NCBI GenBank assembly: GCA_017798145.1
Contig: CP059069.1
Location: 853,226 to 917,225, forward strand
Source: Akkermansiaceae bacterium
GTDB taxonomy: Bacteria > Verrucomicrobiota > Verrucomicrobiia > Verrucomicrobiales > Akkermansiaceae
Direction of reading: 5' to 3'
Length of the DNA stretch: 64,000 nucleotides
Shown here piece by piece: positions 12,418 through 39,287 of this stretch (its first letter is position 1; each line of letters starts with the position of its first letter). Under the pieces are notes generated by a model. The model made no database searches and was not told the DNA's origin. It saw only the letters and a list, made by a program, of their open reading frames with translations. Both the position numbers and the translations under genes were made by a program.

Positions 12418-13068
12418 TCATCCTTTTTTGACTTCGAAATTGAATGGGACGAGGGCGACGGACTTGACCTTATTGCCGCCACGGGTGCCGGGCTTGAACT
12501 TCCAACGGTTGACCGCATTGATCGCCGCCTTGTCGAGATCGGGGTGGCCGGAGGACTGCTTGATCGAGGTTGCGATCACCTTGCCCGCCGCATCGATGGT
12601 GCAGGAAACGAGAACCCTGCCACCCTTGCCCTGGCTGAGGAGGGAACTGGGATAGGTGGGCGGGATCTTGCTGACAGGCTGCGGCGGCGCATCGAGATCG
12701 CCTCCGAAGGCGTCATCGCCGCCTTTCATCGAGAAATTCGGAATGTCCATCACGAACCCCCCGCCCGATCCGGCAGTCAGGTCTCCGAGATCGATGCCGA
12801 GATCGAGGTCGTTGGCTTCCTCCACCATTTCATCCGGCTCGGGTTCCTCCTCGATTTCCTCGGGCGGCTCTTCGGTTTCGAAATCCATTTCCTCCGGCGG
12901 CTCGACGACGATCTCCGGCGGCTCGCCCTGGTCGCGGTCGAGGAACTGGCTGAGCTTCTGGGAAAGCGGGATCGCCACAAAGACGGCAATGGTCGCCACA
13001 AAACCGCCGATCACGGCAAAGATGCCGGTGAACTTGCCTCTGGGCGGTCTGTAAACGTGGCGATCCAT
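12418..13068 (-). CDS. tonB: TonB energy-transducing protein
   Basis: The 216-residue product has a single N-terminal membrane helix (about residues 17-35, after a short basic cytoplasmic tail). A Pro/Glu-rich spacer follows with repeated EPPE and PPEE units, where many family members have Pro-Lys. The C-terminal TonB domain holds PPTYPSSLLSQGKGGRVLVS and NAVNRWKFKPG. It carries proton-motive energy from ExbB/ExbD to outer-membrane TonB-dependent receptors; the likely client is the receptor encoded at 19584-22985. Its start overlaps the exbD stop (TAATG), so the two are translated together. Confidence 0.93.
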   Translation of the reverse strand: MDRHVYRPPRGKFTGIFAVIGGFVATIAVFVAIPLSQKLSQFLDRDQGEPPEIVVEPPEEMDFETEEPPEEIEEEPEPDEMVEEANDLDLGIDLGDLTAGSGGGFVMDIPNFSMKGGDDAFGGDLDAPPQPVSKIPPTYPSSLLSQGKGGRVLVSCTIDAAGKVIATSIKQSSGHPDLDKAAINAVNRWKFKPGTRGGNKVKSVALVPFNFEVKKG

Positions 13069-13475
13069 TATTTCGTGGAAACGGAGATCTTGTCTTTCAT
13101 TGCACCGGCAAGGAGCGCCTGTCCGTGGACTTGCTGGACGATTCCGTGGGTGGATTCCTTGTCGCCCTGTATGATGACGGACATGTCAGGCGTCTCGGTG
13201 AGAAGGGGTTTGATTTTCCCGATCACGCCTTGAACGCCGACACTCTCGCCACCGTAGAAGACCTTGTCCTCGGCGGTGACAGCCAGCAGGATGGAGTTTT
13301 TTTCAAGCGCACTCGCCCCGCCGACATCCGGCTTGTTGACCTTCACCCCCGTTTCCTCGACGAATACGGTCGAGACGATGAAGAAAATGAGGAGGATGAA
13401 CACGCAGTCTATCATCGAGGAGAGATCGACATTGACGGGTTCTTCGGCTTCGTCGCCTATGTTGCGGCCTAGCAT
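13068..13475 (-). CDS. exbD: ExbD/TolR biopolymer transport protein
   Basis: The 135-residue product has the ExbD layout: a short cytoplasmic N-terminus, one membrane helix containing the conserved Asp (VDLSSMIDCVFILLIFFIVSTVF; Asp at about residue 23), and a periplasmic domain with VTAEDKVFYGGESV and DMSVIIQGDKEST. The Asp is the residue thought to take part in proton translocation in the ExbB-ExbD motor. It lies between exbB (7 bp gap) and tonB (overlapping), so stoichiometric co-expression is likely. Confidence 0.93.
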   Translation of the reverse strand: MLGRNIGDEAEEPVNVDLSSMIDCVFILLIFFIVSTVFVEETGVKVNKPDVGGASALEKNSILLAVTAEDKVFYGGESVGVQGVIGKIKPLLTETPDMSVIIQGDKESTHGIVQQVHGQALLAGAMKDKISVSTK

Positions 13476-13482
13476 GATATTG

Positions 13483-14091
13483 TTAGATTTTCGGTTCGCG
13501 CTGGAAGCGGGAGGTGAGAATGAGGCTTTCGAGTCGCTGGAGGGTCGCGGAGATGCGGTCGCGCTTCGACTTGATGATGAGGCCGAGGAAAAGCCCCGGC
13601 AGGGCGATGGTCAGGCCGGTCTGGGTGGTGATGAGCGCCTGCTGCATCCCGTCCGCCACCTTCTGCATACCGGCCGGTCCGGTTCCCTGGGAAAGGCCGG
13701 CGAACATTGCAAGCATCCCGGTGACGGTGCCTAACAGGCCGGCGAGCGGTGCGGCGGCGACAAGGGTGTTGATGACGAGCAGGCGGCGGTCGATGCTGGA
13801 AATGAGGTTCAGCCGCACCTCCTCAAAGCGCCGGCCCACGGTCTTGATTGTCAGCTTGGGGCCATGGAGAACGTAGGAAAGCGCCTCACCGATCCGCCCG
13901 CCCGCACTGTCCGGATTCTCGATCCACTCCGGCCATTTTTCCGAGTGCTTGTCGTTGAGGTTTCCGTGGTTCACATAGGCGAGGGCGGCGAAGCAGAAAC
14001 CGTAAAGTATGCAGGCCACCCCGCCGAGCATGTACATGATTTCCCCGCCCGAGAGGAAGAGATCCAGACCGTCTTTGAAGATATCCGTCAT
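13483..14091 (-). CDS. exbB: MotA/TolQ/ExbB proton channel family protein
   Basis: The 202-residue product has three membrane helices (about residues 16-38, 105-130 and 150-172). The MotA/ExbB signature follows DRRLLVINTLVAAAPLAGLLGTVTGML and ends in GLTIALPGLFLGLIIKSK. It forms the stator-like channel with ExbD. A second ExbB-like gene with a large periplasmic extension lies just upstream, so this operon codes for two ExbB-type subunits, as in Vibrio TonB2/TtpC systems. Confidence 0.92.
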   Translation of the reverse strand: MTDIFKDGLDLFLSGGEIMYMLGGVACILYGFCFAALAYVNHGNLNDKHSEKWPEWIENPDSAGGRIGEALSYVLHGPKLTIKTVGRRFEEVRLNLISSIDRRLLVINTLVAAAPLAGLLGTVTGMLAMFAGLSQGTGPAGMQKVADGMQQALITTQTGLTIALPGLFLGLIIKSKRDRISATLQRLESLILTSRFQREPKI

Positions 14092-14105
14092 GTGCTTGCT
14101 TTGGT

Positions 14106-15569
14106 TCAGGCCGTCGTAGGAACGAGTTCGACATCGTCATCTCCGCCGTCATCTCCGCCGTCATCGGGGTCTTCCGCGTGGGAAACCGGCTGCATCCCTT
14201 TTCCGCGCTCTGTGGTTCCGTTGATGATGGCGATGGCGGAACCCTCGATCTCGCCGAACTTCGCCTTAACCATGCTCTTGAGCAGGCCGTGTACGACGAG
14301 GACGGGAATTGCGACGATGAGGCCTTCCGCCGTGGTGATGAGGGCCTCGGAAATGCCCGCCGTGAAATTTTTCTGGTTACCGCTTCCATAGAGCGCCATC
14401 GCCTGGAAGGTCTTGATGATCCCGAGCACGGTGCCGAGCAGTCCCATCAGCGGCCCTGCGGCGGCGGTGAGTGCGAGGAAGGGGAGGAAGCGCTCGAGGT
14501 GCGGCTTGATGACGACGAGCTTCTCGAACATCGACTCCTCCAGCACACGGCGTTTCTCATAGAATTTCGATACCCCGATGACTACGAGCGCCCCGGCCTC
14601 GCCAGGAATCGTCTTGGCGCGCTTGAGAGCCACGTCCTGCTTTCCCGCGAGGAGATCGTCGAGGATGGCATTGAGCTCCCGGCGGTTCGGCACCTTGAAC
14701 CTGGAAACCTCCCAGACCTTGAAAGCCGCAATCAGGAATGAGATGGCACCGAGTAGCAGGATGGCGTGTCCGACATAGCCGCCCTTTTCGATGGTTTCCC
14801 AAAGGGTCTCCTGTGCCGCCTCAACCTCGATCGCCTTGCCCATGGAGCCATCGAATGGAAGCTCGCCATGCCCTGAGTTGAGGGTTTCGGTGATCTCCCC
14901 ATCATAGCCCTTGATGGCGACAACGGTTGGCAGAGTGGTTCCCGTTTCCGCAAAAGTGGCGACGCCCTCAAAGCCACCGCCTTCCTGCGTGAAGAAAACC
15001 GATGGCCCGGCGACGAGGAGCTTGCCCTCGACGGACTCGCTGCCGTTGCGCAGGGCTTTGCCATCGAAGCTGTGGCCGCCCGCGATGTCTCCAAGGCGAC
15101 TGATACCGATCCCGAGGACTTTCATGCGCTCCGAAAGCTCCGCCTGCGGCTCGTCCACAGCGGCGGTGGCGGATTGGTCGATGGCCTCCACCTCCTCGCG
15201 GTAGATCTGGTTCTCGCCCGGATGGAGGCGGGTGATGAACGCCTTGGAATATTGGCTGAGTATGCCAGCGGAGTAGTTGAAGTCCGTTTTCCTAGCGTCG
15301 ATTTCGCGCTCGAGAGTCTTGACTGTGGCGGTGCGGCGTTCCTCCTCGCGCTCAAGGGCGCGGAGTTCCCTGCCGAGCTTCAGGGCTTCGTCGTCAAGGC
15401 GGTTGATATCGCGGTAAAGGGCGCGGCGGAGATCGGAGTAATCCTTCTTTGTATCACCGAGTTCCTTGACGGCCTTTGCCAGATCCGCCTTGGCGGTTTC
15501 GACAGGCGTCTGGGCGGAGGAAACGGCACAGAGTGCGAGAAGGAGCGTGAGTTGGATGAGGCGGCTCAT
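14106..15569 (-). CDS. TtpC-like ExbB-family protein with periplasmic coiled-coil extension
   Basis: The 487-residue product starts with a signal-like segment (MSRLIQLTLLLALCAVSSA). A charged coiled coil follows to about residue 135, then a beta-rich region and a membrane helix (HAILLLGAISFLIAAFKVW, residues about 263-281). The C-terminal half carries the MotA/ExbB signature (AAAGPLMGLLGTVLGIIKTFQ and ITTAEGLIVAIPVLVVHGLL). This fused architecture is that of TtpC, an extra component needed by TonB2 systems in Vibrio; it is thought to span the periplasm. The acidic C-terminal tail is Asp/Gly-rich. It lies 6 bp downstream of the DUF3450 gene. Confidence 0.9.
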   Translation of the reverse strand: MSRLIQLTLLLALCAVSSAQTPVETAKADLAKAVKELGDTKKDYSDLRRALYRDINRLDDEALKLGRELRALEREEERRTATVKTLEREIDARKTDFNYSAGILSQYSKAFITRLHPGENQIYREEVEAIDQSATAAVDEPQAELSERMKVLGIGISRLGDIAGGHSFDGKALRNGSESVEGKLLVAGPSVFFTQEGGGFEGVATFAETGTTLPTVVAIKGYDGEITETLNSGHGELPFDGSMGKAIEVEAAQETLWETIEKGGYVGHAILLLGAISFLIAAFKVWEVSRFKVPNRRELNAILDDLLAGKQDVALKRAKTIPGEAGALVVIGVSKFYEKRRVLEESMFEKLVVIKPHLERFLPFLALTAAAGPLMGLLGTVLGIIKTFQAMALYGSGNQKNFTAGISEALITTAEGLIVAIPVLVVHGLLKSMVKAKFGEIEGSAIAIINGTTERGKGMQPVSHAEDPDDGGDDGGDDDVELVPTTA

Positions 15570-37718: not shown

Positions 37719-39023
37719 TCAATGATCCTCCTCATCCCTGAAGATCACACTCTTGATTTCAAGCTGTGCCAACAGATTCAGGACATCAATCACACGCTGC
37801 TGGGTGGTCAGCGGATCGACCCATACGGATACCCTCAAATCCTTTTCCCGCACGCCTTTCTCCCTGGCGATTTCCTTCAGCTTTGCCTTCAGCAACGGCA
37901 ACTCCCTTTGATCGGCATCCTTGTCCAGCTCTACGCCCTCCTTAGCGGAAATCACTCCCGCCTTGGTGATCGAAATTTTCACCACCACGGAATCCTTTTC
38001 ACCCGCGTTCAGCGCATCGTCATCCAATTTCGGCAAGGCCATCTCGAGATCCGTTTCACGTATCTTGAGAGCGTTATCGGGTTTCTTTTCAGAAGACTCA
38101 TACACGGCGAAGACGACCTGATCCACACCCGCACTTGCCGCCGCCCGAATCACACTCCGGGAATACTTGAAAACGGAATCCCTATCGCCACGCAAACAAA
38201 GCTTCGCGGTTAGCCCCTGAGCCTCAAGCCGCTTCCGTTCCCGTTTCACGTAGTCCGTCACACCCGCTTCATCGGCCAAGACCAGGTTCTGCCCGACAGT
38301 CAGCGTCCCGTCCACCCTGATGTTCACGACAATCCTGCCGCTTGGTTCCGTATCCGCCAGCTTGACCACAGGCGGCTGCACCTCCGGATCAACATGTATG
38401 TCAAACTCCATGCTCGGAAACCCATCGTCAATCCGCACCACCCCGGACAAGCAGCCCGCAGAGCGCACCAACTGCAGCACCTTAACCATGTGCCCGAAGG
38501 ATGTCCTTGACCTCACCACAAGGACGAAGCGCGGTATCTCTTCCGCCGCGTCCGCCCTCTTCACCCCTTCCCTGATGGCATTGAGAAAACTTTCCAAACC
38601 CACCAGATCGGCATCCATAATCCCACGGCCGGCATTGTCAGGTATCCCGGCCTCAGCCATTTCCACCGGATGACAGATAGCGATCACCTGCCCTCCATCA
38701 CAAATCACACCGATCACGTTTTCAGCCTCCTTCTTTCCCTGAAGAATCGGATCAATCATCACCCCCCGACCTTCCTGACCTCGCAACGCAAAGCGAACAG
38801 GATGGCTCAGAAGCTGTTCAAGCCCCAAGCCTTCCAACGAAATCCCTACCGGCACATTCGCATCCGCCGTAAAACATACACCGCCTTTCAGATCCTCCTC
38901 CGTCATCTCCACGAAGCCCTCAGGCAAATCCCACTCCTTACCATCGAACTCGACCAAAATCTCCCCGCAAAACCCCGACGAAATCACTGCCGCACAGAAA
39001 AGAAAAGATAACAGCTTCGGCAT
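37719..39023 (-). CDS. Secreted protein with apparently three tandem ExbD/TolR-like domains
   Basis: The 434-residue product has a signal peptide (MPKLLSFLFCAAVISSGFCG) and no later membrane helix. Three segments follow the ExbD periplasmic pattern. Segment 1 is at about residues 140-200 (RFVLVVRSRTSFGHMVKVLQ). Segment 2 is at about residues 205-310 (QPPVVKLADTEPSGRIVVNI, then LCLRGDRDSVFKYSRSVIRA). Segment 3 is at about residues 325-430 (LEMALPKLDDDAL, VVVKISITKAGVIS, LRVSVWVDPLTTQQRVIDVL). ExbD normally carries one such domain on a membrane anchor. No exbB is nearby, so it may have lost the motor role. Its function is unknown. Confidence 0.7.
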   Translation of the reverse strand: MPKLLSFLFCAAVISSGFCGEILVEFDGKEWDLPEGFVEMTEEDLKGGVCFTADANVPVGISLEGLGLEQLLSHPVRFALRGQEGRGVMIDPILQGKKEAENVIGVICDGGQVIAICHPVEMAEAGIPDNAGRGIMDADLVGLESFLNAIREGVKRADAAEEIPRFVLVVRSRTSFGHMVKVLQLVRSAGCLSGVVRIDDGFPSMEFDIHVDPEVQPPVVKLADTEPSGRIVVNIRVDGTLTVGQNLVLADEAGVTDYVKRERKRLEAQGLTAKLCLRGDRDSVFKYSRSVIRAAASAGVDQVVFAVYESSEKKPDNALKIRETDLEMALPKLDDDALNAGEKDSVVVKISITKAGVISAKEGVELDKDADQRELPLLKAKLKEIAREKGVREKDLRVSVWVDPLTTQQRVIDVLNLLAQLEIKSVIFRDEEDH

Positions 39024-39287
39024 ACCAACGGCATACCGCCCCAATTCGGGAAAAACAATGTCCAAAGCGCCCCTTACCCACCCAAGCCTCCCTCACCGGA
39101 AGAGACATGAACCCATTTACAGATTACCCGATAGATCTTTTCGGGGAAAATGTTGCTATGAAGCCCCTGACCCGAATGCACGGATTTGAACTCGCAACGG
39201 GGCAGGTGATAGAATCGACGCCTCATACGGTGGCTTTCAGCCTCAGGAAGGCTACAATGATTGTTCCGTGAGAGGAATCCGAAACCG

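Follow-up and report, generated by a model that had tools for sequence, protein, structure and literature searches.

The stretch of DNA analysed here, called the window below, comprises 64,000 nucleotides from an Akkermansiaceae bacterium. On its minus strand lies an open reading frame for a protein of 434 amino acids (P0001, of genome G000), whose features are collected in Table 1. An alternative TTG start is possible at 39065. The GC content of the three codon positions of the gene is 0.63/0.37/0.65, and the third-position value is the lowest among the six genes measured.

The protein opens with a signal peptide. By eye, a lipobox is absent from the cleavage site, where the residues are SGFC. 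In the version that begins at the TTG, which is slightly longer, a hydropathy scan flagged only the N-terminal stretch. The original prediction had described an exported protein without a membrane anchor, and this holds: the N-terminus alone is hydrophobic, and no helix precedes domain c or domain d. The analysis thus confirms, in the main, that P0001 is by its sequence a predicted exported, unanchored protein of ExbD/TolR-type periplasmic domains.

Table 1. Features of the 434-aa gene, in positions of the window
Feature	Residues	Position	Strand	Basis or remark
Whole gene	434 aa	37719..39023	-	ATG at 39023
Signal peptide	1 to about 20	38964..39023	-	Read from the sequence; no canonical lipobox
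Segment a	21-94	38742..38963	-	No significant ExbD match
Segment b	about 102-194	38442..38720	-	Weak third ExbD-like domain; PF02472 E 0.58
Strand before domain c, DIHVDPEVQPPVV	208-220	38364..38402	-	Alignment with own ExbD1
Domain c, ExbD1-type head	226-308	38100..38348	-	Identity, profile, model match
Strand before domain d, KIRETDLEMALPK	320-332	38028..38066	-	Counterpart of the stretch behind the ExbD2 membrane helix
Domain d, ExbD2-type head	343-430	37734..37997	-	Identity, profile, tree; structure model too weak

ExbD Domains in the Protein

ExbD and TolR are membrane subunits in which the head and the proton helix work together. Their Pfam family is PF02472, which P0001 matches at 41.8 bits against a cut-off of 25.4, with three stretches reported at the lax threshold of E<=10. 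No second Pfam family, OmpA-like domains included, was found in the protein up to E 10, at which the HMMER filters drop most weak matches. The TolR equivalog model (NCBIfam TIGR02801) gives 32 bits, far below its cut-off of 127.3. Searching the whole 4.39-Mb genome with PF02472 returns 16 places, 12 of them over the cut-off. Three of the others are the segments of P0001, with E values of 4.8e-4, 0.098 and 0.58, each alone below the cut-off, and the last is a further weak match elsewhere in the genome.

A canonical profile was built from the 147 canonical ExbD domains of the fetched loci, leaving out the unanchored ("free") proteins. It matches residues 211-304 of P0001 at 66.1 bits (6.9e-22), residues 319-427 at 47.7 bits (3.1e-16) and residues 142-190 at 5.0 bits (0.005). 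When the N-terminal part is scanned alone it scores 7.3 bits, a value reached by none of 500 shuffled sequences. The same test on the N-terminal part of three full-length homologs gives 2/500 (genome G020), 38/500 (G017) and 54/500 (G362). Support for the third domain thus extends to two of the four proteins. With hhalign, the four N-termini together align with most of the head in the canonical profile (E 2.1e-4, at a probability of only 46%), and either pair of N-termini alone aligns more weakly (0.0024 and 0.064).

On the basis of these profile scores and shuffles, two ExbD domains can be assigned with certainty from the sequence; a third ExbD-like domain (segment b) is weakly indicated but better than chance. 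The prediction of three ExbD-like segments therefore stands firmly for two of them. It is also recast, since the last two domains differ in type, one being an ExbD1 head and the other an ExbD2 head; the protein thus carries a fused pair rather than three copies of one domain (see below).

Segment a can be read by eye as a shortened head, which would make a fourth domain. No profile supports this reading, and for that reason the segment is kept out of the count. Near its start it carries the motif W-x-(F/L)-x-(D/E)-G, which in the G362 homolog is not kept after the W.

Distribution

The family was surveyed with a profile of the N-terminal half, built from four of the carriers, in 260 genomes at E<=1e-3. 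The free gene is present in five of them: G000, G020, G017, G362 and G387. The match in G387 has an E value of 1.2e-10, and this genome is the only carrier independent of the search profile. Full-length open frames encode 434 aa in G000, 408 in G020, 416 in G017 and 429 in G362, the starts in G017 and G362 being GTG readings. Identity to P0001 is 24% for G020, 21% for G017 and 32% for G362. Lipobox-like starts can be seen by eye in G020 (LTGC) and G017 (LAAGC), and none in G362; the Pfam lipid-site model gives the G020 protein only 12.6 bits against 20. The G020 (L050:5972-7195) and G017 (L064:1336-2583) proteins have in common a CxxC motif, CEKC, between the heads, which P0001 and the G362 protein are without.

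The copy in G387 is broken (L118:5850-6625). The ExbD part is out of frame with the signal peptide and is not followed by a visible ExbD2 part. In a further genome, G014, an LTSC lipobox heads a protein of 274 aa that has two ExbD-like domains but lacks a membrane helix (L052:4626-5450); this is possibly a separate fusion. Elsewhere in the same genome, at L053:1778-2458, a membrane helix without the Asp precedes a head of the ExbD1 type and a cut one of the ExbD2 type.

A scan of named genomes matched only the record of G020, a Verrucomicrobiaceae MAG. In a search of 384 genomes of the class (E<=1e-13, best four or fewer candidates per genome), no further free protein was among the matches listed; this absence is weak evidence, because at most four candidates were scored per genome and none of the other carriers was among the listed genomes. 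The full profile matched in 90 of 386 genomes of the order (E<=1e-12, again with at most the best four candidates per genome), and these matches are mostly canonical ExbD1 and ExbD2.

Origin of the Two Heads

Residues 209-312 of P0001 are 53% identical to the ExbD1 of the same genome (C1:2129824-2130144), and residues 319-430 are 44% identical to its ExbD2 (C1:2129324-2129659). Each is the best match in the genome. The two genes adjoin each other at C1:2129324-2130144, in an operon with the order exbB-exbD1-exbD2-TPR(997 aa)-301 aa.

A midpoint-rooted tree was made of the 147 canonical ExbD domains and the free domains. One of its groups (support 0.89) contains the seven free c domains, segment b, every one of the 57 ExbD1 domains and four unclassed ones, but not one of the 58 ExbD2 domains. 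Another (support 0.95) contains the five free d domains, every one of the ExbD2 domains and 11 unclassed ones, and no ExbD1. The c domains of P0001, G362, G387 and one G014 copy cluster inside ExbD1 (0.75; 0.81-0.90 with ExbD1), and those of G020 and G017 fall outside all ExbD1. The d domain of P0001 branches deep, apart from its own ExbD2; that of G362 lies inside ExbD2.

Identity and tree thus support a descent of domains c and d from exbD1 and exbD2 of an operon of the type exbB-exbD1-exbD2-TPR, and in the sequence the heads are clearly joined in operon order. Because the last two domains are the ExbD1 and ExbD2 heads of one operon type, P0001 is best described as a fused head pair.

In the PVC group, motors have been described that combine a pair of tolR-like genes with a TPR gene, and no deletion phenotype is reported for their proposed transducer (PMC12204202, section 8). 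This motor type, in which exbB is joined by two dissimilar exbD genes and a TPR gene, is the likely donor type and is present in all five carriers. Its pair consists of two separate membrane proteins, whereas P0001 holds both heads in one exported chain. The same source places a von Willebrand-type gene downstream of the motors, as is found in G027; in the carriers the TPR gene follows exbD2, and no von Willebrand-type gene was noticed beside the operon. Section 8 of the account makes no mention of an unanchored form.

Structure Models

The original prediction had proposed comparing predicted structures with the ExbD and TolR periplasmic domains. The AlphaFold2 models of P0001, made with two sequences, have a pLDDT of 43.5 (whole chain) and 57.5 (residues 205-434, domains c and d). 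Domain c is well modelled, with blocks mostly at 69-88, and its model matches TolR 5BY4 with Z 9.5 (2.6 A over 82 residues), ExbD 8PEK with Z 8.0, 8P9R and 8VGD with 7.8 and 8VGC with 7.2; the next row is at 5.7. For the poorly modelled domain d, the VIA-align rows are unrelated proteins with Z up to 5.7, which at this model quality weighs neither for nor against the ExbD fold. Foldseek lists mostly enzymes for the low-confidence whole-chain model, with TolR at rank 8, a result given no weight here; for the c-d model it places ExbD 8PEK third and TolR 5BY4 fourth, after two unrelated entries. A profile search of solved structures found the ExbD chains 8pek and 7ajq as the only relatives at E<=0.01.

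The predicted structure confirms the ExbD fold for domain c only, segment b and domain d being modelled too poorly to compare. The best structural matches of domain c, namely TolR 5BY4, ExbD 8PEK and ExbD with a D-box peptide (8VGC/8VGD), are soluble heads made in the laboratory. These pair as homodimers, whereas P0001 is a natural fused ExbD1-ExbD2 chain.

What the Fused Heads Lost and Kept

All 147 canonical domains have the membrane Asp. Ahead of the heads of P0001 the transmembrane helix with this proton-carrying Asp is absent, as are the cytosolic tails, and nothing stands in their place. Each head opens with the stretch that in canonical ExbD comes directly after the helix. The segment DIHVDPEVQPPVV aligns with KTDPEVLPPVA of the genome's own ExbD1, and RETDLEMALP aligns with RETDLGMALP of its own ExbD2, both just behind the membrane helix. 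In ExbD, a strand is swapped between the two heads and joins them (PMC10771500). The retained stretches would correspond to the region that holds this strand.

Retention in the heads is selective. P0001 keeps 15 of the 16 ExbD1 and 13 of the 18 ExbD2 periplasmic columns of at least 90% conservation, and only 7/32 (ExbD1) and 5/36 (ExbD2) of the columns under 50%. Of the highly conserved columns, G362 keeps 11/15 (ExbD1) and 17/18 (ExbD2). The figures for domain c are 12/16 in G387 and 13/16 in the helix-bearing copy of G014. Fewer are kept by G020 (7/16 and 8/18), by G017 (4/12 and 8/17) and by the two-domain protein of G014 (3/14 and 7/14). Judged by column retention, not by dN/dS, this pattern suggests that P0001 and the G362 protein are under constraint and that the lipobox homologs (G020, G017) are more diverged.

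These numbers bear on the idea that exbD duplication left the gene as a by-product which is now decaying and has no present function. Such decay would fit the broken copy in G387, the cut second head in G014, the extra ExbD2-type copies in several carriers and the many conserved columns lost by the lipobox pair. It is nevertheless very unlikely, given that four full-length frames have stayed open in spite of the low identity of the homologs to P0001 (21-32%), and that P0001 and the G362 protein have kept conserved columns selectively.

Among the PF02472 matches listed for 29 genomes of the class (to near E 1e-15, a level that the rows of P0001 itself do not reach), none is without the helix, and each begins no later than model position 10. 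In the open part of PubMed Central, searched by titles and the starts of abstracts, no naturally occurring ExbD or TolR that lacks the membrane helix was found. For instance, PMC6851124 describes, in the part available, an ordinary TonB/ExbB/ExbD cluster.

The Motor Operon and the Gene Neighbourhood

All five carriers, which share ancestry, have exbB-exbD1-exbD2 followed by a gene of about 1000 aa. Next comes a gene of about 300-350 aa, complete in four carriers; the fetched stretch ends inside that of G362. The exbB and TPR assignments were Pfam-tested in G000 and made by likeness and order in the other carriers.

The free gene lies outside this operon. By eye, the carriers share no neighbours of the free gene, which here stands beside queE and an unknown membrane protein, and no conserved neighbourhood links it to the motor. 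A von Willebrand-type-looking gene about 1.8 kb from the free gene of G362 (L117:2453-3532) was considered as a conserved neighbour and set aside, the homologs in other carriers being elsewhere. The genome holds 12 ExbB matches, the nearest about 23 kb from the 434-aa gene. At about that distance, at about 12433-14555, is a Ton-type cluster that matches TonB_C, ExbD and, twice, ExbB. The earlier statement that no exbB or tonB genes are nearby is thus true for about 23 kb and not for the window as a whole.

P0001 resembles ExbD and TolR in its periplasmic domain, in the strand that in those proteins follows the membrane helix, and in a Pfam score above the cut-off. It differs from them in having no membrane helix and no proton-carrying Asp, in carrying two to three domains per chain and in not standing beside exbB. 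The helix, the Asp and the exbB neighbourhood were each tested and found absent, and P0001 is therefore homologous to ExbD without being an ExbD motor subunit.

It might still belong to the ExbB-ExbD1-ExbD2-TPR machine as a working accessory subunit, for instance a periplasmic or outer-membrane adaptor that docks onto the motor heads and helps in passing force. The presence of the operon in 5/5 carriers agrees with such a role, and the lipobox homologs could sit at the outer membrane. We consider it distinctly improbable, since the free gene lies outside the operon and genomes with canonical ExbD1 and ExbD2 (90/386 in the order) far outnumber the carriers (5/260 in the family). So sparse a distribution means that the motor does not need the free protein.

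Other ExbD2-type genes are found apart from the operon. An orphan membrane-anchored one lies in the genome of P0001 at C1:1419190-1419594 (L049:4652-5116), with the nearest ExbB match more than 100 kb off, and G017, G014, G387 and G020 have additional ExbD2-type matches. A possible link of the exbB-exbD1-exbD2-TPR operon to mucin uptake in Akkermansia was considered; no support for it was found in the open part of PubMed Central.

Proposed Function

The architecture and ancestry of P0001 rest on its sequence, and from them we infer a function. Our tentative reading, to which we give slightly less than an even chance, is that P0001 is an exported, unanchored ExbD1-ExbD2 motor head which binds the partner of the motor head but is unable to pull.

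The heads of exbD1 and exbD2 are joined in operon order. The tails, the helices and the proton-carrying Asp are missing, and the strands behind the helices are kept. Since a single chain holds the two heads and the two strands, the protein may fold as a ready-made ExbD1-ExbD2 pseudo-heterodimer. Its putative partner would be the same as that of the motor head: a beta-strand 'box' of the transducer, the TPR protein, the motor ExbD or peptidoglycan. A dimer of ExbD heads takes one TonB strand into the groove between them (PMC10907165). Because P0001 would bind its partner yet could not pull, it may serve as a passive holder, a decoy or a brake. The relatives with a lipobox would play the same role from the outer membrane.

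Peptidoglycan could also be the sole target. P0001 would then be a peptidoglycan-binding periplasmic protein, in which the freed heads tether or space the wall through the wall affinity of TolR and ExbD. TolR without its swapped strands has its peptidoglycan binding exposed (PMC4646322), the contact of ExbD with peptidoglycan is transient (PMC10771500), and the lipobox homologs would suit a tether between outer membrane and wall. However, P0001 retains the strands behind the helices, among them the one that is swapped in ExbD; its Pfam results contain no other wall-binding family; and it retains ExbD1- and ExbD2-type residues, which suggests more than generic wall binding. We regard the wall-binding role as unlikely.

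The reading as a head pair that binds without pulling can be taken a step further. An evolved, unpowered head pair may compete for the periplasmic partner of the motor and so brake or gate its force, with a version anchored in the outer membrane in some relatives. This is a speculative extension, and rather doubtful at present. No unpowered head-pair brake in Ton or Tol motors was found among titles and abstract starts in the open part of PubMed Central, and we know of none in this motor family. The weak third domain and segment a are not explained by the head-pair model.

Significance

Structural work on a motor with unlike heads. P0001 provides an ExbD1-ExbD2 pair for such work, ready-made in a single chain.

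Separating binding from energy use. A natural protein that has both heads and their strands but no helices separates the two.

Finding the load of the motor. The partner of the free heads, once found, would point to the load on which the motor acts.
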